This document shows, piece after piece, positions 7,005 through 23,394 of a stretch of DNA of 64,000 nt. This DNA is from Tahibacter aquaticus. Its GTDB lineage: Bacteria > Pseudomonadota > Gammaproteobacteria > Xanthomonadales > Rhodanobacteraceae. Numbering within the stretch: the first letter of the stretch is position 1; each line of letters opens with the position of its first letter. The notes beneath the pieces were generated by a model, which saw only the letters and a list, made by a program, of their open reading frames with translations, did no database searches and was not told the origin of the DNA. The position numbers were made by a program, and so were the translations under genes. The stretch is taken from assembly GCF_004363655.1 (NCBI RefSeq), contig NZ_SNZH01000002.1, positions 1-64,000 of the forward strand, given 5' to 3'.

Positions 7005-8408
7005 CTATTCCCGGCGCCGGCGCGAACTGCCGAGCTTGCGCGTCAAGGTATTGCGCCCCAGGCCCAGCGCCTCGGCCGCGTGCTGGCGATGCCCGTCATG
7101 CGCGGCCAGCGCCGCCTCGAACAACACCCGTTCCAGTTCCGCCACCGCCGCCGCATGCAGATCGCTGCGACCGGCCGCCAGCTCGCGCTCGGCCCAGCGG
7201 CGCAAGCCCTCGCCCCAGCCCGGCTCGGCCGGCACTGCGGTTTCACGCTGGAACGGCAAATCTTCCACCCGCACCTCGCGACCCGGCGCCATCACCGCCA
7301 GACGCCGGCACAGATTTTCCAGTTGGCGCACATTGCCGGGCCAGTCGAACCGCTCCACAGCCGCCAGCGCCTTGGCCGACCAGCGCTTCGCGCCGACTTT
7401 CAGTTCTTCCGCCGCCCGCGCCAGGAAATGCTCGGCCAGCAGGCCAATGTCTTCGCGCCGCTCGCGCAGGCTGGGCAGATGAATGCGCACCACGTCCAAC
7501 CGGTGCATCAAGTCGGCGCGGAATTCGCCGCGCGCGACTTTGGCTTCCAGATCCTGATGCGTCGCCGCGATCACACGCACATCGGCGCGAATCAGTTCGC
7601 GCCCGCCGACCCGGTAGAACTCGCCCTCGGCCAGCACGCGCAGCAATCGCGTCTGCAGCAGCAAGGGCATATCGCCGATTTCATCGAGAAACAAGGTGCC
7701 GCCGTCGGCCTGCTCGAAACGGCCCGCATGCCGCCGTGTGGCGCCGGTGAACGCGCCCATCTCGTGGCCGAACAATTCCGACTCCAGCAACTCCGACGGA
7801 ATTGCCGCGGTATTCAGCGCCACCACCGAGCGCAAGGCCCGCGCGCTGTGCGTATGCAGCGCCCGCGCCACCAGCTCCTTGCCGGTACCGGTCTCGCCGG
7901 TGATCAGCACATTCAGGCCGCTGGCCGCCACGCGGCCAATGGCGCGGAACACTTCGCGCATCGCCGCCGAACGGCCGATCAATTCCGTCTCGCGCGGACC
8001 GGGCCGGCTGGGCGCGGCCGGTGGGGCTGCCTGGCTGCGCCGCTGCGCCAGCGCGCGCTGCGCCGCCGCCACGGCCTGGTCCAGATCGAACGGCTTGGGC
8101 AGGTAATCGAACGCACCGTGCTTGTACGCTGCCGCCGTCGTGGCCACGTCGGTATAGGCGCTCATCACGATCACCGGCAGCTGCGCATAGTGCGCATGCA
8201 GCCGCTCCAGCAGCTTCAGGCCGCCCTGGCCCGACATGCGCACATCGGTAAACAGCAAATCCGGTACGTGTTGCTCGATCAGCGCCAGCACGCTTTCCGC
8301 TTCCTCGAACTCCGCCACGCGCAGGCCCGCATCGCGCAAAGCCGCAGCCAGCACGAAACGCACGGCGCGGTCGTCGTCGACCAGCCAGACCAGGGCTGTT
8401 TCAGCCAT
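7005..8408 (-). CDS. ntrC: Nitrogen regulation response regulator NtrC (GlnG)
   Basis: Sigma-54-dependent activator of nitrogen-assimilation genes, phosphorylated by NtrB. Receiver domain: acidic pocket DDD near residue 12 and the likely phospho-acceptor Asp55 in LLFTDVRMS. The central AAA+ domain has Walker A GETGTGKE, the sigma-54-contacting GAFTGA loop and Walker B GGTLFLDEIGDM. The C-terminal Fis-type helix-turn-helix is HAAEALGLGRNTLTRKLGSS. I use the ATG at 8408 (MAETALVWLVDD), which overlaps the ntrB stop by eight bases; an in-frame ATG at 8420 is also possible. Its operon partner is ntrB. Confidence 0.95.
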   Translation of the reverse strand: MAETALVWLVDDDRAVRFVLAAALRDAGLRVAEFEEAESVLALIEQHVPDLLFTDVRMSGQGGLKLLERLHAHYAQLPVIVMSAYTDVATTAAAYKHGAFDYLPKPFDLDQAVAAAQRALAQRRSQAAPPAAPSRPGPRETELIGRSAAMREVFRAIGRVAASGLNVLITGETGTGKELVARALHTHSARALRSVVALNTAAIPSELLESELFGHEMGAFTGATRRHAGRFEQADGGTLFLDEIGDMPLLLQTRLLRVLAEGEFYRVGGRELIRADVRVIAATHQDLEAKVARGEFRADLMHRLDVVRIHLPSLRERREDIGLLAEHFLARAAEELKVGAKRWSAKALAAVERFDWPGNVRQLENLCRRLAVMAPGREVRVEDLPFQRETAVPAEPGWGEGLRRWAERELAAGRSDLHAAAVAELERVLFEAALAAHDGHRQHAAEALGLGRNTLTRKLGSSRRRRE

Positions 8409-9438
8409 GCGACTCTCCATAAGGCAGCAACAGACTGAATACCGTTTCACCTGCACGGCTGCGATAGGTCAGCCCGCCCAGATGCTCGCCCGCAATCTCG
8501 CGGCACAAGGCCAGCCCCAGCCCGCTGCCGTCGGCCCGCCCCGACACCATGGGCAGAAACAGATGATCGGCCAGCTCGCTGGCCACGCCGCGGCCGTTGT
8601 CGATCACATCCACGCGCAAGGCCAGCTTCGCCACGCGGTCGTGGATACGCGCCGAATGCTCGGCCCGGCTGCGCAGCACCAGCCGGTCCGCGCCGGCTTC
8701 CAGCGCATTGCGGCCGAGATTGAGAAACAGCTGGGTCAGCCGATCCGCGTCTCCCTGCAACAGCGGCAGGCTGGGATCGAAATCGCGCGTGATCGCCGCC
8801 TGCCCCTGCGACACCAGCAAGGCCGCCACCCGCTCCAGCACCTCATGGATGTTCACCGGCCCCAGCGGCGACATGACCGACCCCTGCAACAGCCGGTTCG
8901 CCAGCTGGGCGAGGCGATCGGCCTCGGCAATGATCAGCCCGGCCAACTCCTTCACTCCCTCGTCCGCCACGCGCCGCGCAATCAACTGCGCCGCCCCACG
9001 CAAGCCCGCGAGCGGATTCTTCACCTCATGCGCAAACCCGCGCAGCGATTCCGACAGCTGCGCATTCGGCTCGCGCACCGCCGGCGCCAGCGTATGCACC
9101 TCCAGCAAGGCACCGCCTTCGGCCAGCGGACTCAAGGTCAGGTCCACCGCCACCGGCAGGCCCGCCGCATCAAGCAGAACGAAATCGCGCAACTGCACCA
9201 CGCGTTGTTCGGCCAGCACGCGGCGGAAGGCTTCCGGCAACTCGGGACGGTCCGGCGCCAACGCGGACAGCGGGGTCACTTCCAGGCGGCGCGCGCCCAT
9301 ACCGAGCAGCTCGCACAGCGCCGGATTCGGCGCGTACAACTGCTGCTGCGCATCGATGCCGGCAGCGGCGGTGCTGAGTTGGGGCCAGAAGGTGGTGGAG
9401 TCCACGGTTGGTGCAGATTGGGGCGGTTGCACCATCAT
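8401..9438 (-). CDS. ntrB: Nitrogen regulation sensor histidine kinase NtrB (GlnL)
   Basis: Cytoplasmic PAS-containing histidine kinase/phosphatase acting on NtrC, normally under PII control. No transmembrane segments. The PAS region covers about residues 20-115; the H-box is FAHEVKNPLAGLRGAAQLIA with the phospho-accepting His. ATP-binding boxes are LFLNLGRNALEAG (N box), VIDNGRGV (G1) and GSGLGLALCREI (G2). Start at two consecutive ATGs at 9438. In many bacteria glnA lies upstream; here mobile DNA begins immediately upstream, so the island may have separated the pair from glnA. Confidence 0.94.
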   Translation of the reverse strand: MMVQPPQSAPTVDSTTFWPQLSTAAAGIDAQQQLYAPNPALCELLGMGARRLEVTPLSALAPDRPELPEAFRRVLAEQRVVQLRDFVLLDAAGLPVAVDLTLSPLAEGGALLEVHTLAPAVREPNAQLSESLRGFAHEVKNPLAGLRGAAQLIARRVADEGVKELAGLIIAEADRLAQLANRLLQGSVMSPLGPVNIHEVLERVAALLVSQGQAAITRDFDPSLPLLQGDADRLTQLFLNLGRNALEAGADRLVLRSRAEHSARIHDRVAKLALRVDVIDNGRGVASELADHLFLPMVSGRADGSGLGLALCREIAGEHLGGLTYRSRAGETVFSLLLPYGESHG

Positions 9439-9493
9439 AGTGCAGGGCTCGGCTTCTCACTCTGTTGGTCGGCACGCCCAGTGTGGTGGGCAC

Positions 9494-9532
9494 AACACCG
9501 AAGTTTGTACGGAAAAGACAAACTTCGGTGTT
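9494..9532. repeat. Perfect 14-bp palindrome upstream of ntrB
   Basis: Inverted repeat AACACCGAAGTTTG / CAAACTTCGGTGTT with an 11-base loop. The inner arms GAAGTTTGT...ACAAACTTC match the consensus GAAGTYTGT...ACARACTTC that heads both long repeats at 36252 and 45835, suggesting one REP-like family. There is no T-run on either side, so it is not an obvious terminator. It sits 56 bases upstream of ntrB and could also affect that transcript. Confidence 0.6.
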
Positions 9533-9714
9533 GCCGCCGGGTAAGGTGAGTCGGTCGGCTCAGAGCGGCGCACCCGTGTAGACCGTGAGCGGCTTTTGCC
9601 AATGATCAAGCGAGAAGATGTTAATAAATTCATAGACTTGCTATGGATTACTTCGCGGCGCATGCGCGGGCCCAAGGCTGGTAAGGAAGTGGTCCGGTTA
9701 CTCGCGGCTCGACC

Positions 9715-10435: not shown

Positions 10436-10666
10436 TCACTCCTGGTACGACAGCACAGCAACAAACTTTTCTATCGACTGTGCAAGGGTCTGGGCCTCAT
10501 CGACCGTAGTTCCCGGCTTGAGCCGCATTGTCAGTGATCCCTTCTTGATCACACTCAATTCTCCGTCCGCGGGTTCAAGTGAGAGGAACACAGGCGCATC
10601 GTCGGCACCATTCCTGCTCGGCTCGCCTTCCTTCACCAGAAACCGGTACTTGGCTGTCTCATTCAT
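10436..10666 (-). CDS. Small hypothetical protein, transposon-proximal
   Basis: 76 residues from the ATG at 10666, preceded by a good Shine-Dalgarno sequence (AGGGAGGG, five bases upstream), which is why I prefer it over the longer frame from 10726. The protein begins MNETAKYRFLVKEGE and contains SLEPADGELSVIKKGS and LKPGTTVDEAQTLAQSIEKF, a mixed beta/helix pattern. No membrane segment or known domain. It lies downstream of tniQ on the same strand, where Tn7-like elements carry cargo, so it may be cargo. The gap 10667-10895 shows no gene. Confidence 0.5.
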   Translation of the reverse strand: MNETAKYRFLVKEGEPSRNGADDAPVFLSLEPADGELSVIKKGSLTMRLKPGTTVDEAQTLAQSIEKFVAVLSYQE

Positions 10667-10895
10667 GCCACCCTCCCTTTTGTATCCGGCACCTGCCGTC
10701 CCGTTGAATTCTACGTGCGTCTGCATCGTTTTCCCGTTGGGCGTATGACCAGCGCACGATTCAGCGCTCTATCCGATGAAGACGCTTTGTGCCGTCGATC
10801 AAGACTGCGTGGCAATGGTACTCGCAACTTCAGACGCCCGGGACCTCTCGCTTTTTTGAACTGGAAAATATTTGGCGCAACGCAGGCGGACGATC

Positions 10896-12269
10896 CTATT
10901 TCCACCCGCGCATCCATTTGTCCAATATCGTCGAAATCGGATCTTCATCAACATCTCGGGGCACTTGCGAGTTGGGCTCGGAATCGGGGTTAGGCGTAGG
11001 TAGAAATTGCCGTATCACCAACAATGCTTCGACGCACTGGGCCGCCAAATCGGCCGATACTCTAGCGCGTTCCGCCACGATCATTTTAAGGTCTGGAGCG
11101 GCTAACCTCGTGGCGGACCTAAGGTGGAGCGATGCGCAGTCAAATACCCTGAGAACGTGGACCCTTGCGATGTCCTTCTGCTGAGAATAGACGTCGGAAT
11201 ACCGCCCAAAGAGGTCAGGATAGCAATCTCGGACTGCATCGAGCCATACACCTAACTGATTGCACAGAAAAGCAAGGGGAGGCAAACGAATACGTCCGCT
11301 CGCGAGCAACTTGATCATGCAATCGCCCGTGCGACGCAAATTTTCTTTGCCCGGCCGCTTAGGAAACGGAATTCTATTGAACCCTGCCGACCTGTCGAAA
11401 AGCGACCTAGAGGCGGCAGACCTAGGCTTTATGAAAATGTCCTCAATTTCGCAGCCTTGAAACGCACACAGATTGAGGTACTGCGTAATTGTCGGTATGC
11501 ACACGTGACTCGTACGCATGGTGACATCAACAAACTGGCGGACTCCGTCGGGAAAGGGCTCGCCAGCGCGCAGTCGTCGCTTCATCACGTCGCAGAACTC
11601 GAGATAGCAACTAATCTTCAGAATATCGTCCTGATTTGAGACGAATGCGGTAAAACGTATTAGAGAGCGATCGATCCAGGACGAAATTGGTGAGGCCTGC
11701 GTGTGCTTGCCCGGAACTCCCAGCGGCCTCCGGCATACAAAGCAATCTCTGCGCACCTCGTAGCTCCGGTACAATGGTTGTTCCGCGTCACACTGGGGAC
11801 AGGTGGATTCCATTGATACGCGGTGAACCGGGCAAACTGCCAGCATGGAGAACGCCCACACCAAGGGTTCGAAGCTGGTTTCATGATCCCATTCAAGGTA
11901 GCAGGTCGGGCACCACCGACGGCGAGCTTGCCCTCCTTTCGTGTAAGCCATGCCCCGGTGCGAAAGCACCTTAGAAGCGTAGTGAAACGTGCCCCTTGAC
12001 AGATTGTCCTGCCCCGTCAACTCCATAAGTCGAAATAGCAGTACTGCGTAGTTGCTTCGGGGGCCAATCCAGCTTGTGTGACCCGACGCGATCGACTTGT
12101 TCTCAGCGTTGCAGTTTCCGGCCCGAAGGATCGAGGCCAGAAATCCACGGGATACTCCGCACATGCTGGCCATGCGAAACGCGTAGTGATCTAAAGACTC
12201 GATGAGTTCCGTATCGATGCCGCGGAGACGGACGGGCGGCAAAGGAGTCCAACCCGAGCAGGCTGGCAT
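10896..12269 (-). CDS. tniQ: TniQ family transposon targeting protein
   Basis: TniQ/TnsD proteins choose the target site for Tn7-like transposons and recruit the TnsC ATPase. The 457-residue protein begins with the family's signature region (ESLDHYAFRMASMCGVSRGF) and has a zinc-finger block WCPTCYLEW...LAVCPVHRVSMES...CPQCD near residues 115-160. The middle and C-terminal helical parts (residues ~200-430) are diverse, as in TnsD-like proteins. I use the ATG at 12269, which overlaps the tnsC stop as TGATG; a GTG three bases upstream is possible. It is last in the leftward tnsAB-tnsC-tniQ operon. The length is nearer the longer TnsD-type than the shortest TniQ proteins. The target is unknown. 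Confidence 0.85.
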   Translation of the reverse strand: MPACSGWTPLPPVRLRGIDTELIESLDHYAFRMASMCGVSRGFLASILRAGNCNAENKSIASGHTSWIGPRSNYAVLLFRLMELTGQDNLSRGTFHYASKVLSHRGMAYTKGGQARRRWCPTCYLEWDHETSFEPLVWAFSMLAVCPVHRVSMESTCPQCDAEQPLYRSYEVRRDCFVCRRPLGVPGKHTQASPISSWIDRSLIRFTAFVSNQDDILKISCYLEFCDVMKRRLRAGEPFPDGVRQFVDVTMRTSHVCIPTITQYLNLCAFQGCEIEDIFIKPRSAASRSLFDRSAGFNRIPFPKRPGKENLRRTGDCMIKLLASGRIRLPPLAFLCNQLGVWLDAVRDCYPDLFGRYSDVYSQQKDIARVHVLRVFDCASLHLRSATRLAAPDLKMIVAERARVSADLAAQCVEALLVIRQFLPTPNPDSEPNSQVPRDVDEDPISTILDKWMRGWK

Positions 12270-13264
12270 CACGCCTCCTCCGTCGGCCAGATTTTGTCCG
12301 CTCGAGCCGCTACCGCATCTCGTTTGTCAGCGTGCTTTGCTGCCCAGAACGACTCGACATCGGCCCAGAGCGTTCCCAGGTCTTTGGCGTTGTAGTACGC
12401 CGTCTCGATGTCGGCTGCTGTGATTTGCGAGCGGTCAGCGTCAAGCGCGTTGCTCTCGGCGCGGTCGAGCAGGTTCGTTATCTCGCCACAAACGGCCGCG
12501 GTAGCGGCGGCGATCTCCGGAGCGAGTCTTCCGAGCAGATCGCGAGGCCTGAATTCGTACCTCGAACCAATCGTTCTGAGCAGACTCAGGTAGCAGCGCA
12601 TCTCTTCCCGATCTGAAACGTTGTACGGCGCTGCCCAGACGACGTCCATACGACGCCGGATTTCTGATCGACCCGCCCACAATGCCGTACCGGTCTGTAT
12701 CGTAGTGAGCAGAGCCATTGACCCGGCGCTCTCCATTACTGACATGAGATTAATAATGTGGTGCGCGGGGCTGGTGTCCTTGTGATTGATGCACAGGGCC
12801 GACGCATGTTCCAGACTGTACAAGTTCAGGGCTCGATCACGCGCGACATTCTTGAATTTTATCCAACACTGCGTCTCGGTGAGATTTCTACTAACGTCTT
12901 TCCAGATAGCGCTGGATAGCGCGATAGCCTCCCGAACCTTAACTGTTTCAGGCGAAGGCGTCGCGCCTCGAATGAGCCAAGAAATGTCCGGCGTGAAAAG
13001 TTGGTCGAAGCTGTCTTCCGCCCATCCTTTAGAGTTGAAGTACGCTTTCTCGGCCAACAGTGCCATGACCTCGATAGTAGGAATGCAGCCGAGGCCCCAA
13101 CATTCAGGCCGTCCGTACAACTCGCGCATCACATTCCAGCGCATGGTTGTCTTCCCTACGCCACCTACCCCGATGAGGACGATAATGCGGCCTGGCCGGT
13201 GCTTGCTCACGTAGCGCCGCAGTTGTGCCCGAGCCACTTCAAAGTTGCGATGGGGGATGATCAT
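12269..13264 (-). CDS. tnsC: TnsC/TniB-type AAA ATPase, transposition regulator
   Basis: AAA protein linking the target selector (TniQ) to the transposase. Walker A is LIGVGGVGKTTM near residues 32-43. Where Walker B is expected, after the strand ASALCI, the sequence reads INHKD instead of the usual hydrophobic-DE, so the acidic pair appears substituted; the codons (ATC AAT CAC) are clear. Later elements look normal: LLTTIQTGTALW, then RRRMDVVW. Start ATG at 13264 has AAGGAG five bases upstream and overlaps the tnsAB stop as ATGA. The C-terminus overlaps tniQ. Family assignment rests on Walker A, size (331 aa) and operon context. Confidence 0.82.
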   Translation of the reverse strand: MIIPHRNFEVARAQLRRYVSKHRPGRIIVLIGVGGVGKTTMRWNVMRELYGRPECWGLGCIPTIEVMALLAEKAYFNSKGWAEDSFDQLFTPDISWLIRGATPSPETVKVREAIALSSAIWKDVSRNLTETQCWIKFKNVARDRALNLYSLEHASALCINHKDTSPAHHIINLMSVMESAGSMALLTTIQTGTALWAGRSEIRRRMDVVWAAPYNVSDREEMRCYLSLLRTIGSRYEFRPRDLLGRLAPEIAAATAAVCGEITNLLDRAESNALDADRSQITAADIETAYYNAKDLGTLWADVESFWAAKHADKRDAVAARADKIWPTEEA

Positions 13265-15792
13265 TTCCGCTCCTTGCACTCAGGAACGGCGTCCCAGTCA
13301 ACGGCTGCTCTTTTCTTTTCGGCAGTTGCCCGGGCCAGAGGCGCTGCGGCGTCCGGCAGCGATTCGCGCACGGGCCCCAAATGCTTGGTCGACTCCATGG
13401 CTTCAAACGCATTCATTTGACGAGCATGCCGCGATTTCGCGACATCGCGCTTACCCACGCGCTGTCGACGCTTTGCATACGGTCTGAACAAGAGCTCGAA
13501 GAGTTTCAAGGGTTCCGGTAGTGTAGCGACCACAGGCGCACTCCTGTGGCATGCTTTCCACCATCCTCGTCCAGCCTTCACCCATAGGATCGAAGGATCC
13601 ACGCAGTCGCTACGTATCTCGTCGACGGACTCCGTGCGCAACACGCGTTGAAGCTCATCACTGGTAAATCGACCGTCGCCTGTTCTTACGCCATCGTGCT
13701 CGCTAGCGCTGACTTTTCTCTTCAGCTTCGCTGATGTTTGAATCAGGAAAGCGTCGTCAAATTGCTGCGGCACCCCCATACAGCCCAAGGTGGCGAGCAA
13801 TTCTTCCCGCTTCTCTTGGGGAGTTATCCCGTTCCCGTCGGGTGTCCGAGGGATATCGGTGTAGAGGTAGTCGCAAAATTCCTGATGAATAAGGCCGAAG
13901 GTGTGACGGGCGGTCTTTCGGCTTTTAAATCGGCCATCGACTTTTCGTCCCGCCATGTCGGGCTCGGTACTTCCCGCGATTCGGTGAGCGGTATTGGCAT
14001 TGGTTTGCTTGATCGCGTTTTCGGCTTGGCCGTTGAATTGGCTGCCGCCGGACGGTGCGTGAAACAGTGCGATTCCCATGGCTTCGCAAAATTCGTCGAT
14101 CCAATTCGAGGTGTTTTCCGATCCGCGATCAACCATGATGGCCCGCGGCAGAAACCCGTGCCGGAAAACGTATTCGCGGATCAGTATCGCGAGCCCATCA
14201 GTTCTTGCTGGACCGAAGATGAAGGCGTGCGCCATTGCCTCCTCCGTAGCGCCGTCCATACCGATGTAAAAGCGGGGCTTTTCTGCCGGAAATAGCGTTA
14301 TGAGATTGGATGCACATCGGTTGTCGAACTGAGAGGAGTCAATTGCAAGAAGATACCCGTATCCCAGAGGCGGTAGCGAGCGTTTGTCGCTCCCCGTCCG
14401 TGGTCGTACTGCGTGGAATTGCCGAAGTCCGCCACGTGCCAGTGCTCGCTTACGCGGATCTTGCTCTGCTACACGCTTCCCCAGCGTCGTCTGGCTTGGC
14501 GCCTGTTCCCCTGCTGCGGAACACCACGCATCAAGGTCAAGCCAGAGATGTGCAATTGTATTTCGCTTGCCCTTGTTCCAGAGTTCATTGATGACGTGGT
14601 CAATGCCTTTGCGCTGCCCTTCGGTCAGCGGCGATGGGGTGTTCTGCCCGCAGTTGCTGTAGTTCGTTAGGCAGGCAGCAAGAGGAGATTGTCCGGCAGC
14701 AATTTTGTCCGCCACAATTTTGGCAAGCTGGGTCATGCGAACGGTGGCGGGCTCCTGCCCCAGGGAGATTCTGCGCAATCGCTGCAAGCGACCCTCGGCA
14801 CGAACAATGTCTGATGTGGTCGCGCACAGAATGGGGTCACCGCTGATCTGGGGCTGGTCGAATCCCGACCTAAGCTGTGCGTAGAAGAACTCGTCCGCGG
14901 CGGCCGCCTGTGTTTTGCTGGCGAAAAGATAGAACCCTTCCCGTATCACTGGTGAGCTGCTTTTCACCAAGCCATACGCATGACCATTTGCGATCATCCA
15001 GAGCGCAACGCGCTCATTGAATACGGGCAACACAGCATTTAGCGTCTCTATCGAGCGAGGATACTCTTGCAGCAGCTGTCTTGCTCGGCGACTCGCGAGA
15101 TCCTCTTGAGGCGTCAGGGACTCACCAAGCAAGGCGTAGCAGGCTTCGAGGTTCTGGACTTGCAGCGCCATGGGGGTCGTTTGGAACCAAACCATGAAAT
15201 TCAAACCCAACGCCTTCGCGCGGGACCAATAGGGCGCATGCGTCCAGTTGTTCCCTTCCCTCCTGTAGTCCGCGTTCGGCTTTTTGGCCTCTTTCTCGAG
15301 CCAATTGTCGTACTTGCACTCAACTAGCTGAATTGAGCGTTCACGCAGGACAAGAAAATCTAAAGCGGCTGCACTGACGTGTCGTCGCTCGCCGCGAACC
15401 CGTTCGATACCTGCGCAAGGAACTTGCGTGTAGTACCCAAGGACGGTTGGATCGAGTTCCAGCTCATGTGCAAAGGTCAGTTCGCAAGTGTGGCTTTCGA
15501 CCAGCCGCCGCGCTCCGTTCTTCTTTGACTGCAGCACCCCTTTGATGCTCTGAAGCGCGCCGCCTCCGACATCGCGACACGGCGATCGCGCGATCATCGA
15601 TTCGATTTCGATGATCTGAGCCTCAGTTAGTCCTACATCTTCATAGACGCTGCGACGTCGTTCGCACGTCAAACGCTCAGTTGGCCCGGCGGGCTCGGGG
15701 AGCACAACAGGGATCTGCAAATCGCCGGTTCTTAGCGGCAAGGCAGGGGGGGGACCAGGTACCACCTCAACTTGTTGATCGATTTCAAGCAT
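13261..15792 (-). CDS. tnsAB: TnsA-TnsB fusion transposase (endonuclease plus DDE integrase)
   Basis: One polypeptide combining the two Tn7 strand-cleavage activities. Numbered from the ATG at 15792 (MLEIDQQVEVV; GGAG eight bases upstream), residues ~100-165 form a TnsA-like nuclease: ESHTCELTFAHELELDPTVL with Glu104, then AAALDFLVL (Asp145) and LVECKYDNW (Glu158, Lys160), matching the TnsA E...D...ExK order. An HTH-like linker region follows. The retroviral-integrase-type core has LLAIDSSQFD (Asp485), AIMVDRGSEN (Asp555) and NGQAENAIKQ (Glu591), with 35 residues between the last two. The C-terminus is basic. The frame stays open to a TTG at 15867 and an ATG at 15861, which are alternative starts. 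First gene of the tnsAB-tnsC-tniQ operon. Confidence 0.87.
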   Translation of the reverse strand: MLEIDQQVEVVPGPPPALPLRTGDLQIPVVLPEPAGPTERLTCERRRSVYEDVGLTEAQIIEIESMIARSPCRDVGGGALQSIKGVLQSKKNGARRLVESHTCELTFAHELELDPTVLGYYTQVPCAGIERVRGERRHVSAAALDFLVLRERSIQLVECKYDNWLEKEAKKPNADYRREGNNWTHAPYWSRAKALGLNFMVWFQTTPMALQVQNLEACYALLGESLTPQEDLASRRARQLLQEYPRSIETLNAVLPVFNERVALWMIANGHAYGLVKSSSPVIREGFYLFASKTQAAAADEFFYAQLRSGFDQPQISGDPILCATTSDIVRAEGRLQRLRRISLGQEPATVRMTQLAKIVADKIAAGQSPLAACLTNYSNCGQNTPSPLTEGQRKGIDHVINELWNKGKRNTIAHLWLDLDAWCSAAGEQAPSQTTLGKRVAEQDPRKRALARGGLRQFHAVRPRTGSDKRSLPPLGYGYLLAIDSSQFDNRCASNLITLFPAEKPRFYIGMDGATEEAMAHAFIFGPARTDGLAILIREYVFRHGFLPRAIMVDRGSENTSNWIDEFCEAMGIALFHAPSGGSQFNGQAENAIKQTNANTAHRIAGSTEPDMAGRKVDGRFKSRKTARHTFGLIHQEFCDYLYTDIPRTPDGNGITPQEKREELLATLGCMGVPQQFDDAFLIQTSAKLKRKVSASEHDGVRTGDGRFTSDELQRVLRTESVDEIRSDCVDPSILWVKAGRGWWKACHRSAPVVATLPEPLKLFELLFRPYAKRRQRVGKRDVAKSRHARQMNAFEAMESTKHLGPVRESLPDAAAPLARATAEKKRAAVDWDAVPECKERK

Positions 15793-15878
15793 GACGATCA
15801 CTCCGCTGCCCGGTGCGGAGGCCTCCGGGCGCTTCTTTCCCCTCCCTGGGAGCTGGGCCATTGACAATCGGGGCCTTG

Positions 15879-16027
15879 GAGCGGATAAGCTGGGCGGGAC
15901 AGTTCAAGTCGCGCAACACGGGGCTCAGGAGCGGCTAACTCCTGGGCCTTTTGCTTTTCCAGATCCTGGCGACGGTGAAGTGCAAATCGCGGCGGCTACG
16001 GCGGGTTGAGTTCCCTCGCGGTTACGG
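15879..16027. repeat. Cluster of degenerate repeats, candidate transposon right end
   Basis: Four short related motifs occur in the non-coding stretch upstream of tnsAB, around GCGGATAAG (15881), GCGGCTAAC (15931), GCGGCTACG (15992) and GCGGTTACG (16018), all in one orientation. Tn7-like right ends usually lie just upstream of tnsA and carry several TnsB-binding repeats, so this is a candidate end. I could not find a convincing inverted set at the left, nor a target duplication. The remaining bases between 15793 and 16156 show no gene. Confidence 0.3.
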
Positions 16028-16156
16028 TGGTTCAATGCTATGCAGCTGCAAAGGTGTTCACTAGCCTGTTTTGGGGCACGTATTCTCACCTAAGCTATTG
16101 ATCTGTTTAGAACGACCCCTGGGTTATCGGAAAAACCTACAGGCTTCTGCACTGTC

Positions 16157-17023
16157 GTGATCAACGCGCTTATCCGAGCCAAGCGCATAGCGTTCTTCCA
16201 CTCCGTGGCGGCCTCGTCTGAGCTCGCACAGCAACGCTCAACTCGCAAGATCAAGTTGCGCGATCCGTGGCTAGGCATTCGACGTGAGCAACGCGAGGCC
16301 TACCTACGGGGAGAGGGCCGGCTAGGCGAGATGCTTCGGAACGAGTTGACAGCGGAGTTCCCGGAGTCCGGCAAGGTTTGGCGCGCATCAGTCTGGGAAT
16401 TTCTCGATCCCGAAGTGCCGGATCGAAGCTGCGAATACAGGCTCTACGAAGTGTGCGACCTGGCGAGGTCGGCCGTAAGCGTTGATGTTGTTCTTGAGCA
16501 CTTTCTGCAGAGTCGCCCCACCACAATCCCTCCTGGTCTGGACGAGGTCTCGCTAACCGTCCTGGCATTGCGTGTGGCGAGGCGACTGGGGGCTCCGATC
16601 GTGGCAATGAAGGTGGCGGCTCTTCTTGCGAGGACATTACTGATGCTCAGCGGATGCACATATCGCTGTGCGGCAGCAGAGGAACTCTGGAAATACTGCG
16701 GCCACCTACTGGTACGAGGCCTAAGAGACCAAGTTCGTGCCGTGGTCTTCGATCATCGAACATGGAACTTCGTTTCTGACCATGCAATGGCAGCGACCGC
16801 TCAGTTCAAACTGCTGGCCTATGCCTCGCCACTCGGAACTGCGCTGCCTTTCCAGGTTGTTGAAGAGCTAATGCGCGATTTGGTGACGGCAGTGGTAACT
16901 GATGACGAGGACCGGGCCACCTCCATTAGCGCTCGACTCAACCTGATTTCCGCAAAGCACCGTGTCAGCAAACGACTTCCCGACATTGAGCGCCTCTCGA
17001 TATGGCAGCCCCTGGCGCGATAG
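16157..17023 (+). CDS. Hypothetical protein divergent from the Tn7-like operon
   Basis: 288 residues from a GTG at 16157; the frame is open back to 16094, so the true start could be slightly upstream. N-terminal region is basic (LIRAKRIAFFHS, STRKIKLRDPWLGIRREQRE) and is followed by an acidic middle (ELTAEFPESGKVWRAS, CEYRLYEVCDL) and a helical C-terminal half. No membrane segment, signal peptide or known catalytic motif was recognised. It is transcribed away from tnsAB across the presumed transposon end. Whether it is cargo or flanking DNA cannot be decided here. Confidence 0.6.
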   Translation: MINALIRAKRIAFFHSVAASSELAQQRSTRKIKLRDPWLGIRREQREAYLRGEGRLGEMLRNELTAEFPESGKVWRASVWEFLDPEVPDRSCEYRLYEVCDLARSAVSVDVVLEHFLQSRPTTIPPGLDEVSLTVLALRVARRLGAPIVAMKVAALLARTLLMLSGCTYRCAAAEELWKYCGHLLVRGLRDQVRAVVFDHRTWNFVSDHAMAATAQFKLLAYASPLGTALPFQVVEELMRDLVTAVVTDDEDRATSISARLNLISAKHRVSKRLPDIERLSIWQPLAR

Positions 17024-17196
17024 CGCGATATTTTTCACGGGTGCAATTCGAGCCGGCCGACACAAACTTCTGTTGTTGCTCAGCGTCGGCATACGGGCAG
17101 ACTTACTCCGCTACCTGGATTGCAACGGAGTCGTTGACTGCTCGAGCCAACGCGCAACACTACGCGCACGCGGCTTATGTATAGGAGGGTCTTGCC

Positions 17197-17706
17197 ATGC
17201 TCGTTTCCTACATGACCCTAAGTCTGCAAGACGGCGACGTAGAGGTCCGCACTGGTGCCACGAACCCCGCGAATGTACTCGCTGGAACGCCGCCCTGCAG
17301 TTTAACGGTAATTTTGCGCGAACCCGAAGTTGTAGAATTACGGATGCGTTTTTTCTCTATGGACTTCGTTGGCGATCAGCTCTTGCCGACGGCGCACCAC
17401 GACGAGAGCGAACTCGTCGGCGCTTGGCTTCGCGTGATGACAGTCGCGCTGCAGGCCGCCGACAATCTCGATGAGCTTCCACTTTCTCCTGGCGAGCTCG
17501 TCGAAGACTGGTGGTTCCGTGCTGCAGAAGGCACCTACTGGAGCCGAAAGTCGCATCAGGAAGCCATAACCGCATTGCGCAGCCAGAAAACAAATCCCGG
17601 AGATTCACTGATCATAATAAGGGGCGAACGGGACGAGGTAGAGCACCTTCTCGCGGCAGTGAATAGAGACGGAAGAGAGGAGGTTTTCGAGCGCCCGCTT
17701 GAGTAA
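17197..17706 (+). CDS. Hypothetical protein, 169 aa
   Basis: Start ATG at 17197 has a strong Shine-Dalgarno (AGGAGGG, seven bases upstream). The protein (MLVSYMTLSLQDGDVEVRTG...) is acidic and soluble, with beta-rich early segments (CSLTVILREPEVVELRMRFF) and a tryptophan-rich middle (VEDWWFRAAEGTYW). No family recognised. It follows the previous unknown gene by 173 bases on the same strand. The next 277 bases (17707-17983) contain a 6-bp inverted repeat GTGGCA/TGCCAC at 17762-17801 and a short hairpin AACCCCGGCGGGGTT near 17916, but no supported gene. Confidence 0.65.
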   Translation: MLVSYMTLSLQDGDVEVRTGATNPANVLAGTPPCSLTVILREPEVVELRMRFFSMDFVGDQLLPTAHHDESELVGAWLRVMTVALQAADNLDELPLSPGELVEDWWFRAAEGTYWSRKSHQEAITALRSQKTNPGDSLIIIRGERDEVEHLLAAVNRDGREEVFERPLE

Positions 17707-17983
17707 TATTTTCGCGCGGCCCGTTTTCCGTGCAAAACGCGTAACGCTGTAGCACAGCATAGTGGCAGGCCGTGCGAATGCAAATCTACCGGTCGTGCCA
17801 CTAGTTGAGTCGCTTGGCGATGGCGCCTATATCGTTGGGCCAACTTCGCGGTGTATAGGTAAGTTAAGGCGTGGCGGCTAGGTGCACGTACGTCTGTCAG
17901 ATTCGTTGGGAACCCCGGCGGGGTTTACTGGATCTTGGTTGGGCGGCGTCATTGTGACGGGGAAATCAGGACATGCGAGTTAA

Positions 17984-18243
17984 ATGTCACGGCAGAGTGA
18001 TATTCTTGACGTCGGCCCCAGTTGAGATCGCAACCAGTTTCATTATTCGCGCGCGTCCCGCCTTTGCGTGGAGCTTCTCGAAGCGTCCTCCGACCTCAAG
18101 GTCGTGTCCGTTGAAGGCATTTCAAAGAAGGACTCCGTCAGCGCTGGCATCGAGTCCATCGACCTCGCGCTCCACTACGGCAGCGTCAGTTTGCCAACGG
18201 CGAGGCTCGTGCGCTATCGCCAGCTCAAGCATTCGGCGCGCCA
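17984..18243 (+). pseudogene. Fragment of a dsDNA-nuclease-domain defence protein
   Basis: From the ATG at 17984 the frame reads MSRQSDILDVGPS, then a TGA stop (18023-18025), then DRNQFHYSRASRLCVELLEA, VSVEGISKKD and ending VRYRQLKHSAR. The pattern (G)D.FHY..A.R.C..LL...V.IEG...Y.QLKHS resembles the N-terminal nuclease domain of Cap4-like/DUF4297 defence proteins, with the glycine before DR replaced by the stop. Homology ends abruptly near 18243, and the remaining part of the large protein is absent. Relic of a lost defence gene; the family call is from memory of the motif. Confidence 0.45.
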
Positions 18244-18440
18244 ACAGCCTCCGCTTTCGCCAGTAGGATCGCGAGGCCTAGACAGCGGATGTGCCCTTCA
18301 CTCAAAGCCGCGAGCGCGTTCACCCGTCGCTGAGGGTTGCCGCGGAAGGCGATGTCAATGATGCCATCGCCAGTTAGCGGCAGGCAGAGGTCAGCTAGCT
18401 TGTCCTCGTCGCGATCCCTGTGGTTGAACTCGTTGTATAG
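18225..18440 (-). pseudogene. Fragment of an SMC/RecF-like AAA ATPase
   Basis: Reading leftward from about 18440: LYNEFNHRDRDEDKLADLCL, IIDIAFRGNPQRRVNALAAL, then SEGHIRCLGLAILLAKAEAV, stopping after GAPNA. LSEGHIRCLGLAILLAKA is the ABC-type signature helix of SMC/RecF-like ATPases common in defence operons. The fragment stops just where the Walker B aspartate would follow, and no Walker A region remains upstream. It abuts the oppositely oriented nuclease fragment, implying deletion plus inversion. The 18441-18651 stretch shows nothing else recognisable. Confidence 0.5.
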
Positions 18441-18651
18441 CGCTATGGTCACCGAGGGGCTCGAGCAAGCGGCCACGCTGGCCGATCGGGCCGCACGGCC
18501 GGCCGATGCGCTGCGCCATCGACGCGAATGCGCCCTGATCCTGCTCGGGTTTCGACCCAAAGCGGTCGCAAATATAGCGCAGAGCGTGGCATCGGCTTGA
18601 GACGGGCGGCCACGGCAGTGGTGGGAAATTTCCCCGGCGGTCTTTGCGCGC

Positions 18652-20073
18652 CTAGCGAGGACGGGTACGCGCTTGCAGCGTTGGGGACGCTCGCCTCCTT
18701 TGGAAACGGACACGAATTCGCGTCTTCGGCTTCAGCACCAGATCCACATAGGGCTGCGGCAATGATTGGCCGTCCGCGAACTCGAAGTCGAATTCTGCAA
18801 TCAAGCGGGCGGCAATCAGTGCCATCTCTATCGACGCAAAGTGTTGGCCCAGACAAACGTGCGGTCCGGCTCCGAAGGGCATATAGGCCCCACGAGGGAA
18901 GCCGGGCGCGCCGGGCAAGAATCGCTCGGGACGAAACACCATTGGCTCCGGAAACCAGCGCGAGTCATGGTGCAGATGCCAGATCGGTATGGCGACCAGG
19001 GTTCGCTTGGGAATCAAAATGCCGGCGACCTGCAGGTTGCGTTGGGCAACGCGAGTAATCAGCGCGGTGGATGGCGGATAAAGTCGCATCGTCTCTTTCA
19101 ATGTGGCATTCAAAAAAGGCAGGCGAGCGATAGTTTCTATTGTGGAATCGCTGCCGGCGGTTTCAAGTTCCATGCGTAGCCGCGACACCACCTCGGGATG
19201 CATGGCCATCAGGCCGATCCACCACGTCAGTGCCGATGCCGCCGTGTCGAATCCGGCTCCGAACAGAACATGGCAGTTGGCGCGTACTTCCTGCGACGTG
19301 AGTGTTGCGTTGCCGGAACTCGCCTGGTCGTCGCGAGCGGCAAGTAACATGTCCAGGATGTCTTGCTTGAGCTCGTGAGGTTGCTCAGCGTTGAGCCGCG
19401 CGTTGATATGCCGATCGATGAGCGTGTCGATCTTGCTCAGGTGTTTTTGTTTTTCCGCTCGCCCGGGAAAAGGCAACCATCGACGCGCCACAAAAGGCCA
19501 ATACGCTTCGCGCATGCTTTGCTTGCTCAGGGCACGAATCGCTACCGACGTGTCGGCGGCTTCCTCTCGCGTAGTGACGTGGGAAAAAAGCGTGCGCAGG
19601 ATGACATCCATGGTGATGCGGGTGGTCAAGGCATCGACGTCGATTTCTGCCGTGTCCCCTTCAACAGAAGGAAGTTCGGCGGCGATGCAGGCATCGATCG
19701 CAGCGCTCATCAACTCCATGTAGCCGAGCAGTCGCTTGGCCGAGAACCCGGGCGTGACGATTCGGCGTTGACGTTCCCAGACCGCGCCTTCGGTGGTGAG
19801 CACGTTGCTACCCTGAAAGGTCTGAAACATCTTCAGCAAGCGCTTCTCTTTGCAGAGATCATCGGCATGATCCACCAATAGCTCGCGTGCCGCTTCCGGG
19901 TTGAACAGATAACAGACGCGGCGAAACAGGATCCTCAGATTGGCCACGTCACCCAACTCGCGTTGAAAGTGACTCGCAGCACCTAAGGGGTCGCGCTGGA
20001 TGAAGGAAAGCAGCGGCAACCCGAAGGGCCCGGTCGCCAATGGTTTGGTCTCGGCTAACAGTGGCGTGTTCAT
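18652..20073 (-). CDS. Cytochrome P450
   Basis: Haem-thiolate monooxygenase of 473 residues. The haem-binding loop is FGAGPHVCLGQ with Cys407; the I-helix oxygen motif is LFGAGFDTAAS; the K-helix ExxR is LKETMRLYPPS; and FRPERF is the conserved meander. No N-terminal membrane anchor, so probably soluble. Substrate unknown; the general layout resembles CYP4/CYP102-type enzymes acting on long-chain or terpenoid substrates (inference). It overlaps the TetR gene upstream by four bases (ATGA), so regulator and enzyme are co-translated. No ferredoxin partner is nearby. Confidence 0.95.
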   Translation of the reverse strand: MNTPLLAETKPLATGPFGLPLLSFIQRDPLGAASHFQRELGDVANLRILFRRVCYLFNPEAARELLVDHADDLCKEKRLLKMFQTFQGSNVLTTEGAVWERQRRIVTPGFSAKRLLGYMELMSAAIDACIAAELPSVEGDTAEIDVDALTTRITMDVILRTLFSHVTTREEAADTSVAIRALSKQSMREAYWPFVARRWLPFPGRAEKQKHLSKIDTLIDRHINARLNAEQPHELKQDILDMLLAARDDQASSGNATLTSQEVRANCHVLFGAGFDTAASALTWWIGLMAMHPEVVSRLRMELETAGSDSTIETIARLPFLNATLKETMRLYPPSTALITRVAQRNLQVAGILIPKRTLVAIPIWHLHHDSRWFPEPMVFRPERFLPGAPGFPRGAYMPFGAGPHVCLGQHFASIEMALIAARLIAEFDFEFADGQSLPQPYVDLVLKPKTRIRVRFQRRRASPTLQARTRPR

Positions 20074-20744
20074 GTCGTGATTTCTTTTGGCTTGGATCGG
20101 GTGGTGGCCGCGCGTGCTTTAGACGGTTGCGCCACGCCGTGCATGGCCAAATCGAAAGCTGCCAGGAATCGCTTGGAAAGATCCCGCCTCGGGTCGATCA
20201 GCCACGCCGAAATCGCCGCAAACAGCAGGTATTGGAAGCTCAGGGCAATTTGTTCGGCGCTCTGCGTCTTGCTGACTTCACCGGTGTCTTGGGCGGCGCG
20301 GAACAGCGCAGTAAGAACCTGCCAGGTTCCGCTGACTTGCCGCGTGGCATCGGCGACTTGGCCGGCGTGGTGCACCTGGCCGGTTAAGTAGCGCAGATAG
20401 TGCGGTAGATAGTCTTTTCGCTGTGCGTGCCAAGCCGCCGATTCTCGCAGCAGATAGCGCATGCGTGCCTCGAATGTCTTGTGCGCTTTCAACGCGCCGA
20501 CGCGTTCAGCCATCCCTGCCGCAATGTCCTCGCGAAATCGATGCGCCAACAGGGCTTCCTTCACCGGGAAGTAGTTGTAAAGCGTGCCTTTGGCGACATC
20601 GGCTTCGGCGGCAATCTGCTCCATGGCGACAGCGTCGAAGCCATGCGTTTCGAACAGACGAAACGCCACGGCCGAAAGGTGGCTTGCGGTTTGCTCGCGC
20701 TTGCGCGCGCGACGACCGGGTTCCGGGGCGGTGGGGATTGCCAT
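20070..20744 (-). CDS. TetR family transcriptional regulator
   Basis: 224-residue repressor. The N-terminal helix-turn-helix is FETHGFDAVAMEQIAAEADV followed by AKGTLYNYFPVKEALL, the classic TetR pattern. The C-terminal ligand/dimer domain is helical, as expected. It is co-transcribed with the P450 and divergent from a prolyl oligopeptidase. The 81-base divergent region carries a 7-bp inverted repeat that is the likely operator, so it probably controls both transcripts. The ligand is unknown. Confidence 0.93.
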   Translation of the reverse strand: MAIPTAPEPGRRARKREQTASHLSAVAFRLFETHGFDAVAMEQIAAEADVAKGTLYNYFPVKEALLAHRFREDIAAGMAERVGALKAHKTFEARMRYLLRESAAWHAQRKDYLPHYLRYLTGQVHHAGQVADATRQVSGTWQVLTALFRAAQDTGEVSKTQSAEQIALSFQYLLFAAISAWLIDPRRDLSKRFLAAFDLAMHGVAQPSKARAATTRSKPKEITT

Positions 20745-20759
20745 GATTCACGTAAAAGG

Positions 20760-20783
20760 ACGACGTTCAAAACTATACGTCGT
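20760..20783. promoter_or_regulatory. Putative TetR operator
   Basis: Inverted repeat ACGACGT-N10-ACGTCGT in the divergent TetR/oligopeptidase spacer. It falls between the predicted -35 and -10 of the rightward promoter and overlaps a possible leftward promoter (TTGCAA, 18 bases, TATAGT), ideal for repression of both directions. Confidence 0.55.
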
Positions 20784-20794
20784 TCAAGTATATT
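20766..20794 (+). promoter_or_regulatory. Predicted sigma-70 promoter of the oligopeptidase gene
   Basis: TTCAAA, a 17-base spacer, then TATATT, ending 31 bases before the ATG at 20826. Each box is a reasonable match to the consensus (4/6 and 5/6). Prediction by eye only. Confidence 0.45.
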
Positions 20795-20825
20795 GTTGCA
20801 AGCTCCCTCGCTGTACAGGTCGTGC

Positions 20826-22970
20826 ATGTCGCTTGCGATAACACTGTTGCTGAGTACCGCACTGGCCGTCGCCGCTCGGGCAGAGCCGCCAACCGCGCCG
20901 ACAGGAAACGTCGTGGATTGGGTTCATGGCCGGCCGATCTTCGACCCCTATCGCTGGATGGAGCGGCTGAACGATCCTGCGCTCGTGGCGTGGGCGCATG
21001 CGCAAAACGATTTCACCCGTAGCGTTCTTGCGTCTGTAACGCCGGGATCGATGCATGAATCCGCTGATGCACCCGCACCCGAAGTGGCGATCGAAGCCGG
21101 CCGCTTGCGGCGGCTGCCGGGCGGTACAGCCGTGTTCCTCGCTCGCATGGGGCGCGACCCGGTCGACGCTCTCTACACCAAGGCGCCCGACGGCACCGTG
21201 GCGCAGGCCTTTGCCCCGGCGCCGGCCGCCAAGGGTGACGTGCAGACGATTTCGTTTTTCGTGCCCGCGCCCGACGGGCGACACGTTGCGATCGCCATGG
21301 CGAAGAGCGGCAGCGAGAACAGCGCGCTGTACGTGCTCGACCTGAAAACCCGCCGTCTCGTGGACGGCCCTATCGCAGGTGTGCGGTTCAGCGCAATCAG
21401 CTGGTGGCCCGACAGCCACCGTTTCGCGTACGCGAGGCTCAAAGACACCGATGGGCGATCAACGGGACGTGCGTTGTATACAGGACAACAGGTTTACGCT
21501 CATACCGTCGGGACGCATTGGCATACCGATCGTCTACTGTTTGGCAGCGCCATGCCCGCGACCGCCGACATACCGTTAGCCGACTTCCCTGAAGTCGAAA
21601 TTCACGCGCAAGCAGGTCTCGCCTTAGGCCGTCATGCGTCGGGTGTGGCACAAGAGTTCGGATTGTTCGTGGCGCCTCTGGATAGCCTGGATCAGGCACG
21701 GATTCCGTGGCGCCGTGTAGTGCGTCCCGACGCGGGGTATGGCGCACCCAGAGCGACAGGCAGCGCACCGATCGTTGTCTTCCGCGGCCGCCTTTATCTA
21801 ACTCATTTTGCCGGCAAGGGCGCGCTCCACAGTATCGACCTTGCACATTCGCAAAAGCCGCTCGTGCATTACGCGGACCCGGATTGGGTCGTGCTTGGTT
21901 TGGTGCCTGCAGCGGATGGCCTCTACGTGCAAGTGCAAGCGGGTATGCGCCAGCGGCTGCTTCGCTACACCATCGATGAAGAAGCGCCGACGACCATCAC
22001 CCTGCCGTTTGCGGGTCAATTCGACCTCGTCGCCGGTGACCAGCGCTTGCAAGGTGTGCTATTGCGCGAGCGGAGTTGGACTTCGCGTTCACGGTATTGG
22101 TCGGTCCAGGACAGCCTCGTGTCGGAGTTCCCCATCGCCACCGTGCCAGCGGATGGCATCGCGCTCTCAGCGGAGGAAATCGATATTCCAAGCTCGGATG
22201 GCGCACGCATTCCGCTTTCCATTGTGTACCCGAGCGCCCGGGCCCGTGCGAAGCCCCTTCCGTTCGTGCTGACGGGATACGCCGCCTATGGCATCAACAT
22301 GCGTCCCGTGCTGAATGAAAACCTGATGCGTCTGTATCGCGACGGCATCGGCTACGCCGTGTGCCACGCACGAGGTGGCGGCGAACTCGGCGACACATGG
22401 CACCGTGCGGCGATGAAAATGACCAAACACCTGAGCTGGGAAGACTTCATTGGCTGCGCCGAGTGGTTAATCGGACACGGGTACACGCGCGCCGACCGGC
22501 TACTCGCCGAAGGCGCAAGTGCGGGCGGCATCCTCGTGGGGCGCGCGATGACGGAGCGACCGGATCTGTTTGCCGGTGTGCATTTGGCCTCCGGCGCGCT
22601 CAACCCCATGCGGGCCGAAACCCACCAAAACGGCGCGCCCAATGTGGCGGAGTTCGGGAGTGTCGACGACCCCGATCAAGCGCGATGGATTTTTGACATG
22701 GACACCTATCTGCACGTCCAGCAGGGCGTTGCCTATCCGGCAGTCTTGCTGACACACGGCTGGAATGACGCGCGTACTCCCTTTTGGATGTCAGCCAAGA
22801 CAGCAGCTCGATTGCGGGCATCGAGTACTTCCGGCAAGCCGGTACTGATGAACATCGACTTTTCAGGCGGTCATCAGATTACTTCGGGAGAACAATCAAA
22901 GGTTTTGCAAACCAAGGCGACGATCGGCGCATTCTTCCGTTTTGTCCTGCTGGGGGACGGCACCGAGTGA
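20826..22970 (+). CDS. Secreted prolyl oligopeptidase (S9A family)
   Basis: Serine peptidase that cleaves short proline-containing peptides. The ATG at 20826 gives a signal peptide (MSLAITLLLSTALAVAARA, cleavage before EPP), so the 714-residue product is periplasmic or secreted. The N-terminal beta-propeller starts VVDWVHGRPIFDPYRWMERL. The catalytic triad in the C-terminal hydrolase domain is Ser565 (GASAGG), Asp648 (HGWNDARTPF) and His683 (GGHQI). The frame is open upstream to 20427, but that part lies over the TetR gene. It is divergent from TetR-P450 and probably TetR-controlled. Confidence 0.93.
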   Translation: MSLAITLLLSTALAVAARAEPPTAPTGNVVDWVHGRPIFDPYRWMERLNDPALVAWAHAQNDFTRSVLASVTPGSMHESADAPAPEVAIEAGRLRRLPGGTAVFLARMGRDPVDALYTKAPDGTVAQAFAPAPAAKGDVQTISFFVPAPDGRHVAIAMAKSGSENSALYVLDLKTRRLVDGPIAGVRFSAISWWPDSHRFAYARLKDTDGRSTGRALYTGQQVYAHTVGTHWHTDRLLFGSAMPATADIPLADFPEVEIHAQAGLALGRHASGVAQEFGLFVAPLDSLDQARIPWRRVVRPDAGYGAPRATGSAPIVVFRGRLYLTHFAGKGALHSIDLAHSQKPLVHYADPDWVVLGLVPAADGLYVQVQAGMRQRLLRYTIDEEAPTTITLPFAGQFDLVAGDQRLQGVLLRERSWTSRSRYWSVQDSLVSEFPIATVPADGIALSAEEIDIPSSDGARIPLSIVYPSARARAKPLPFVLTGYAAYGINMRPVLNENLMRLYRDGIGYAVCHARGGGELGDTWHRAAMKMTKHLSWEDFIGCAEWLIGHGYTRADRLLAEGASAGGILVGRAMTERPDLFAGVHLASGALNPMRAETHQNGAPNVAEFGSVDDPDQARWIFDMDTYLHVQQGVAYPAVLLTHGWNDARTPFWMSAKTAARLRASSTSGKPVLMNIDFSGGHQITSGEQSKVLQTKATIGAFFRFVLLGDGTE

Positions 22971-23037
22971 ATGTCTGCTTCTGGCCGATAGCGGACGCTC
23001 AGGCTTCACGAACGCGCGCGCTATGAAACGCATCTCA

Positions 23038-23394
23038 TCAGCGCGGTGCTCCCTGGCTCGATAGCACTTCGTAGATGTGATCAGCGAACTCGGTCGCTCG
23101 CCGTCGGATCTGCAGTGAACTTCTGCCGGCGCGAAAGTAGGCTTCGATCAAGCAACGATCCGAGCAATCCAGGATTTCACCGTTCATAGCCGTATCTGAG
23201 TCGGGAAGTAATCGATCAACGACGACCGCTGTTGGTACGGAAACCGGACCGAGAAAGAAGACCTCCCTGATTTCCTCGGGAGTGAGGCCGTGATCGCTTT
23301 TGCAATGCGCCTTGCCGTCAACAAAGCGCACTCTCCACCGCTCCGTTTCGCCGCTCGCGTGCTGAAGGTACATTTGTAAATGATATACCGGCAT
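23038..23394 (-). CDS. Hypothetical protein, 118 aa
   Basis: Starts MPVYHLQMYLQHASGETERW and contains FFLGPVSVPTAVVVDRLLPD and LDCSDRCLIEAYFRAGRSSL. Composition is protein-like with no signal peptide or membrane segment. Family not recognised. It is convergent with the oligopeptidase (67 bases apart) and lies downstream of nhaA on the same strand, 63 bases away, perhaps in its operon. Confidence 0.6.
   Translation of the reverse strand: MPVYHLQMYLQHASGETERWRVRFVDGKAHCKSDHGLTPEEIREVFFLGPVSVPTAVVVDRLLPDSDTAMNGEILDCSDRCLIEAYFRAGRSSLQIRRRATEFADHIYEVLSSQGAPR

Follow-up and report, generated by a model that had tools for sequence, protein, structure and literature searches.

A fused tnsAB gene in an overlapping three-gene operon

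The window analysed here is a 64,000-nucleotide stretch of a Tahibacter aquaticus contig, in which positions 10896-15867 are filled by three intact, overlapping open reading frames, all on the minus strand (Table 1). As the original prediction had proposed from the letters alone, these encode a fused TnsAB transposase, an AAA-type TnsC and a TniQ protein. The tnsC and tniQ genes overlap by 4 bases, as do tnsAB and tnsC if tnsC starts at its first ATG; with a start at GTG 13279 the latter overlap becomes 19 bases. The prediction was thus right about the core, and had left out the strand, the ends, the cargo, the target, a fourth gene and a change in TnsC.

The joining of a TnsA-type nuclease to a complete DDE transposase was confirmed: in a six-row clade alignment the nuclease residues E124/E129, D170, E183 and K185 and the DDE residues D510, D580 and E616 are invariant (numbering of the 868-residue protein; subtracting 25 gives the D485, D555 and E591 named earlier). 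Compared with solved chains, TnsAB had one match, 9bw1_M ('Integrase', 898 aa; E 3.3e-19), whose best stretch covers query residues 82-229, the nuclease part, and which matches again across the DDE part. The rve family gave only a below-threshold match to TnsAB, and PF09299 matched nowhere, positive controls included, and was therefore uninformative. TnsC was identified by profile and fold matches to TnsC, and its AF2 model has the normal TnsC fold. The closest solved relatives of both TnsAB and TnsC are type I-B CAST proteins. The TniQ match exceeds the family cut-off, and the predicted zinc fingers are borne out by eight ligands (C121, C124, C147, H150, C158, C161, C177 and C180) that are invariant in a four-row alignment; its nearest relative is that of the Luteimonas element L066 (375.9 bits).

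The predicted lack of CRISPR components held within what was covered: no cas gene was noticed among the ORFs scanned, which make up part of the cargo, and no CRISPR-like array was found among the 20 direct-repeat families listed, of 37, between 9400 and 20100. ARAGORN found no tRNA in the window. No further TniQ matched among the other element ORFs scanned (part of them), in keeping with the single TniQ predicted; this applies to the window copy and does not extend to the relatives L076 and L075, which carry second TniQ genes upstream of tnsAB (L076:5674-7014 and L075:1493-2899).

Table 1. Features of the element and adjoining DNA, in window coordinates.
Feature	Coordinates	Strand	Details
ntrC	7005-8456		neighbour of glnL
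glnL (ntrB)	8401-9438	-	target-side host gene; NCBIfam NF008293, E 1.2e-59, below model cut-off
Spacer	9439-9486		glnL start codon to left terminus, 48 bp; TGCAC 42 bp from terminus
Left end	9487-9533	+	inward TGGGCACAACACCGAAGTTTGT, then inverted ACAAACTTCGGTGTTG; putative TnsB sites
96-aa ORF	10436-10726	-	no family match
tniQ	10896-12272	-	458 aa; PF06527, E 1.1e-6; presumed target selector
tnsC	12269-13279	-	336 aa, AAA+; Walker A GVGGVGKTT; Walker B LYSL-E157-H158 in place of hhhhDE
tnsAB	13261-15867	-	868 aa (843 from internal ATG); TnsA-type nuclease fused to DDE transposase
Gene X	16157-17023	+	288 aa; divergent from tnsAB
Lone end-like sequence	17062-17082	-	TGAGCAACAACAGAAGTTTGT; 59 bp beyond gene X, inside element
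Cargo region	17197-36251		some 19 kb; its genes include those listed below
Cytochrome P450	18652-20073		cargo
TetR-type regulator	20070-20744		cargo
S9 peptidase	20427-22970		cargo
NhaA	23458-24924		cargo
nhaA-I RNA motif	24830-24883	-	before NhaA gene, inside element
Sigma-70	25590-26258		cargo
S8 subtilase	27721-30231		cargo; beside AAA ATPase
AAA ATPase	30261-31340		cargo
HATPase protein	32161-34197		cargo
Right end	36252-36326	-	three sites; inward TGGGCAGCGAGCCGGAGTTGGTGTCA at 36326, CCAC before it
Second right-end-like cluster	45835-45909	-	same layout as right end; CCCC before it

Ends of the element and 4-bp target duplications

Comparison with the operon in related genomes, which the original prediction had suggested as a way to define ends and target, yielded both. 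The element spans 9487-36326 (26.8 kb), with its left end at 9487 and its right end at 36326, because a CCAC duplication, a cluster of sites and joined flanks that fit an empty site in the genus relative G004 agree on these limits. The idea of a compact three-gene element was therefore abandoned for this copy, the ends lying 26.8 kb apart. At the left end, 16-bp inverted arms (9493-9508 and 9518-9533) form a layout that recurs in Dyella, Frateuria and Pseudoxanthomonas, and the terminus of the Luteimonas element upstream of glnL is identical over the same 22 bases. Three sites make up the right-end cluster, with 36326 on the outside, and their spacing is that seen at the right ends of relatives. 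Judged from sequence, both ends thus carry arrays of putative transposase sites, two on the left and three on the right, with similar arrays in relatives; in the 64 kb there are only three site clusters, at 9500, 36252-36305 and 45835-45888.

The duplication is an exact CCAC, the second copy being 9483-9486 read from the other strand. Upstream of tnsAB, that strand has 3088 TG positions, of which 14 are preceded by CCAC, and 36326 has the best end score among these 14 (21, reached by 19 of the 3088); it is the one position of 3088 that combines CCAC with a score of at least 21. The DNA outside 36326 matches the sequence upstream of glnL in G004 at 24 of 27 bases. On its own the right flank scores 39 against G004, where the maximum over 200 shuffles was 27; once joined, the window flanks align through the glnL start to the unoccupied G004 site. 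In the window, neither ungapped inverted repeats nor TG with a 5-bp duplication nor a local alignment of the flanks revealed ends that did better than shuffled sequence.

Duplications of the same length were found in relatives: ACAT at both ends in Luteimonas, TGAG before the right end and after the left end in PS02340, and CTTT at both ends in the Stenotrophomonas elements L068 and L071, whose shared site may be vertical and was counted as one event. All four independent insertions with both ends found (window, L066, L072 and L068/L071) therefore show 4-bp rather than 5-bp duplications, and the length is exact, because the next base mismatches on either side in all four. No right end was located for L069, L070, L076, L077 or L055.

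Two other candidate end sequences were rejected. Position 17082 is the most left-end-like of the 3088 TG positions (score 31, the next 24); as the right end of a 7.6-kb element it was rejected, having, unlike 36326, neither a duplication nor a site cluster, and the lone site at 17062-17082 may once have been an end or may serve in regulation. A 12-bp inverted match between 9874 and 17737 was dropped as chance.

The flank at 45909, beyond the second right-end-like cluster, also resembles the G004 sequence upstream of glnL, and no left end was found for this cluster; it looks as if a second insertion at the same site had lost its left end. Between 36326 and 45909 sits a row of five successive minus-strand ORFs (36387-45575; 362, 622, 528, 554 and 986 aa, the second with an AAA_21 match), which resembles a defence-type operon and is perhaps cargo of a second element.

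The start of glnL as attachment site

The glnL start is an oriented, conserved attachment site for most of the clade. Of 12 distinct clade elements, eight (window, L066, L068, L069, L070, L071, L072 and L076) have their left end upstream of glnL in a single orientation. The TGCAC in the spacer is the first half of a TGCAC...GGTGCA palindrome, a putative NtrC operator. From the left terminus to TGCAC the eight elements measure 42 (window), 43, 40, 40, 39, 38, 39 and 40 bp, L066 having a second TGCAC at 34 bp; the distance to GGTGCA is 50-54 bp in five elements and 66-68 bp in three. Since the latter varies and the former stays within 38-43 bp, insertion is spaced relative to the first half.

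glnL is conserved in six genus relatives. In six genus relatives that lack the element, the ~400 bp upstream of the gene contain at most one site core each. Beyond the tniQ side of the element lies glnL in Dyella flava, Dyella dinghuensis and Frateuria defendens, just as it does in the window; immediately upstream of glnL, D. flava carries CCATAGTTTGT twice together with its reverse complement, with variants in the other two, and the window counterpart of these repeats is the inverted pair at 9493-9533. In Luteimonas the left end lies at glnL ~29 kb downstream of tniQ. A search of glnL and its upstream DNA in 10 genomes found left ends in Luteimonas, two Stenotrophomonas and PS02340, and none in Arenimonas or strain VV52.

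The other four clade elements comprise one at frmR (L077 with its near-copy L055), one upstream of a LysM-like gene (L075), both gene names being assigned by eye, and two that are unplaced: L067 and L073 have no left end at glnL, the glnL of L067 lying on another contig. At L077:16419 and in L055, a C-rich stretch precedes frmR and the left end lies ~40 bp upstream of that stretch, with an operator-like site nearby. The TniQs of glnL-sited elements do not form one clean clade, with two changes on a weak tree.

A shared site and orientation in all eight elements is also what a single ancient insertion at glnL, inherited vertically with no repeated homing, would leave behind. We regard this as very unlikely: the seven other genus genomes all lack a match and one keeps an empty site, the duplications CCAC, ACAT, TGAG and CTTT differ, end positions vary by 5 bp, and the cargo differs from one clade element to another. 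In the open-licence literature we found neither a description of a glnL/ntrB attachment site for Tn7-like elements nor a publication on Tn7-like elements in Xanthomonadaceae, and the main-text passages of Benler et al. 2021 (PMC8649781) that were available do not mention glnL or ntrB.

A divergent Xanthomonadales clade

TnsAB matches, own genomes included and many of them distant, occur in 1 of 8 genus, 33 of 398 order and 7 of 369 class genomes; the seven other genus genomes have none. With the six-row alignment A6 as query, 13 loci were recovered, 12 of them in the clade (one a copy). The nearest TnsAB is that of Luteimonas padinae (59% best-segment identity), and identity to clade relatives ranges from 36 to 60%. 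A TnsC profile matched 21 of 233 family genomes at 1e-10, clade and outgroup together. TnsC alone found only the window's own match in 398 genomes of the phylum. No relative emerged from a lone-protein search of genome contigs, from viral contigs (queries A1 and A6) or from phage records. Before counting, we dropped L074 (a copy of L075), L078 (outside the clade), L052-L054 and L056 (copies of L070, L076, L073 and L075) and the partial matches L116 and L120, and counted L055 with L077 for sites.

A 25-row TnsAB tree makes Luteimonas the sister of the window (100/99) and places Arenimonas beside this pair (93/98); the tree includes some long rows, and three of its forks are open. The neighbours of the clade in it are other proteobacterial elements, and the Nostoc row is distant. 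The window element belongs to a divergent Xanthomonadales clade. That it represents an uncharacterised lineage, as predicted, is supported by the TnsAB identities, the glnL site and the change in TnsC described below.

The type I-B CAST proteins being the closest solved relatives, the element could descend from a CRISPR-associated transposon, kin to types I-B2 and I-D, that has lost its cas genes. This is the least probable of the readings weighed here, given the position of the clade in the tree, the one TniQ found, the glnL site and the lack of a cas gene among the cargo ORFs scanned.

Several Stenotrophomonas loci depart from the simple operon. L067, L068 and L071 share 92-97% identity from gene X across tnsAB and tnsC but diverge abruptly near 11398, a break pointing to exchange at the tnsC/tniQ junction. 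In L067 a second, diverged tnsC follows the first (11435-12655) and likewise has Gln at Walker B. In L068 no TniQ match follows tnsC (11395-18298), where helicase-like ORFs were seen by eye; the L068 contig also holds a second, distant TnsAB element (L078).

Loss of the Walker-B glutamate in TnsC

The catalytic Glu of Walker B is absent from all 15 clade TnsC rows, being replaced by Gln in 12 (two of them one MAG sequence) and by His in three (window, Luteimonas and Arenimonas), and is kept in all 10 outgroup rows. Further Gln rows are G1178, G1180, G1191 and G1196, some of which may repeat species already counted, and further outgroups with Glu are L063, L065, G1216, G1109, G993, G1187, G1111, G1179 and G1038. 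In alignments with close relatives the window motif reads LYSLEH. Parsimony on the TnsAB tree requires one change to non-Glu and one between Gln and His. Within close pairs, tnsC dN/dS ranges from 0.062 to 0.152 among the three Stenotrophomonas elements and equals 0.089 for L077/L055, indicating purifying selection; the window-Luteimonas comparison is saturated.

Replacement of Glu by Gln in Walker B is the textbook change that blocks hydrolysis. Because Gln or His takes the place of the catalytic Glu, the clade TnsC probably binds ATP and hydrolyses it poorly or not at all. This need not hold if the window element is an ordinary single-TniQ Tn7-like transposon whose TnsC still hydrolyses ATP, by an acid such as E157 or by altered geometry. 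All 15 clade rows retain Walker A and 13 retain RRR, the predicted fold is normal, and the window (E157), L066, L073 and L074/L075 rows carry Glu in place of the Asp beside His or Gln, so that in the window E157 might act as the base. We consider continued hydrolysis unlikely nonetheless, as in 10 of the 12 Gln rows the Asp is still present and just the Glu is missing, a configuration matching the textbook block.

The active site could also have been lost in a decayed, immobile relic, a reading to which the absence of the element from other genus genomes and the orphan right end adjoining it would lend themselves. This is about as improbable as vertical inheritance from one insertion: the ORFs are open with tight overlaps, the window copy has an exact duplication, and the change is common to the whole clade under the dN/dS values given above.

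A TnsC of this kind in a homing element would be unexpected, yet with precedent. According to passages of a 2024 review (Annu Rev Biochem, PMC11406308), Tn7 transposition becomes hyperactive and no longer depends on target selectors once the catalytic Glu of TnsC is changed, the same change severely compromises transposition in Tn6677, ShCAST and the TnsAB-type I-D McCAST, and some type V-K TnsCs naturally lack the residue. ShCAST with a non-hydrolysable analogue gave untargeted insertion, as stated in part of another source (PMC9876797).

Gene X and cargo

The fourth gene, gene X, has 48% identity to its L066 homologue, its only phmmer match. Genes joined through a profile take its place in L067, L068, L071, L072, L073, L077 and L055; the profile also matches L075 weakly and the outgroup L061 with E 1.5e-7. 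The kinship of these candidates to gene X is tentative, because the profile was built partly from them and they are 11-19% identical to the window protein. Beside the Dyella and Frateuria elements no counterpart turned up. Close pairs have dN/dS of 0.12-0.19; the window protein matches no Pfam family, and its predicted structure is helical, at low confidence (pLDDT 55.1). In the cargo, the S8 subtilase scored 41.5 of 900 bits against the anti-phage IteS model, far below the cut-off.

Relation to known systems and proposed mechanism

Fused TnsAB with a single TniQ is an already known kind of arrangement, as the original prediction had noted for the fusion: in the parts of Faure et al. 2023 (PMC10293859) consulted, tnsAB fusions are mapped and 2,905 loci with a single TniQ/TnsD are counted. 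The three-gene order, though real, is likewise not special, recurring on a Nostoc plasmid (L029), on a Caballeronia plasmid (L031) and in a same-class genome (L022). No cas gene was noticed by eye near these operons, whose TnsCs, in contrast to the window's, keep the Glu and whose TnsABs are 21-27% identical to it. The Caballeronia TnsAB (L031:4948-7662) has PHF for PDF and DWVSE where others have VECK, and its TnsA part looks dead because nuclease residues are replaced.

Type I-B2 PmcCAST and type I-D CAST also form a Tn7-like subfamily with fused TnsAB, TnsC and TniQ. The window element differs from them in having no cas gene noticed, one TniQ among the ORFs scanned, a glnL rather than a tRNA-gene attachment site, a TnsC without the Walker-B Glu and 4-bp duplications; its TnsAB is 21-24% identical to the cyanobacterial rows over most of its length. 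With prototypic Tn7 it shares TnsA and TnsB, TnsC, a TniQ-family selector and insertion at a fixed distance and orientation at one conserved gene, whereas Tn7 inserts at the end of glmS with a 5-bp duplication and this element at the start of glnL with a 4-bp one; in addition its TnsAB is fused and the Walker B of its TnsC is changed. Type V-K TnsC variants have likewise lost the Glu naturally, but they are CRISPR-guided, whereas here the loss is common to a whole TnsAB clade and no CRISPR was seen. To our knowledge, type V-K systems lack TnsA. A 5-bp duplication is stated for Tn7 and all its relatives in the passages of PMC11406308 at hand, and wording on a 4-bp duplication in Tn7 relatives was absent among the open-licence literature matches listed. 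Given its 4-bp duplication, we describe the element as Tn7-related by its proteins and mode of action, not as a plain Tn7-like member.

At a probability of roughly three in four, we interpret the locus as a glnL-homing 26.8-kb Tn7-related cut-and-paste transposon whose TnsC binds ATP and probably hydrolyses little of it. TnsAB would bind the clustered AGTTTGT-type sites at both ends; going by the conserved catalytic residues, its TnsA part would cut the 5′ ends and its DDE part would cut and join the 3′ ends. TniQ, the likely recogniser, would read the glnL start region, probably at the TGCAC half-site, and load a TnsC ring that calls in TnsAB. Insertion occurs ~40 bp upstream with the left end towards glnL, and the duplications show joining at a 4-bp stagger. 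TnsC, in its ATP-bound state, would probably serve as a platform that hydrolyses ATP little if at all, leaving release and fidelity to TniQ and TnsAB. Among the observations that sit less easily with this interpretation, 17082 is the most left-end-like position, the 45909 cluster complicates the locus, and two clade members are sited elsewhere. More tentatively, and with somewhat less than even confidence, the clade may form a distinct Tn7-derived lineage combining a hydrolysis-free TnsC platform, a 4-bp stagger and homing to an NtrC-type operator at glnL.

The glnL start offers a new safe-harbour target whose empty site is resolved, and the 4-bp stagger breaks the rule stated for all Tn7 relatives. 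A clade that lacks the Walker-B Glu yet lands at a single site makes the need for TnsC ATP hydrolysis in fidelity and immunity directly testable.
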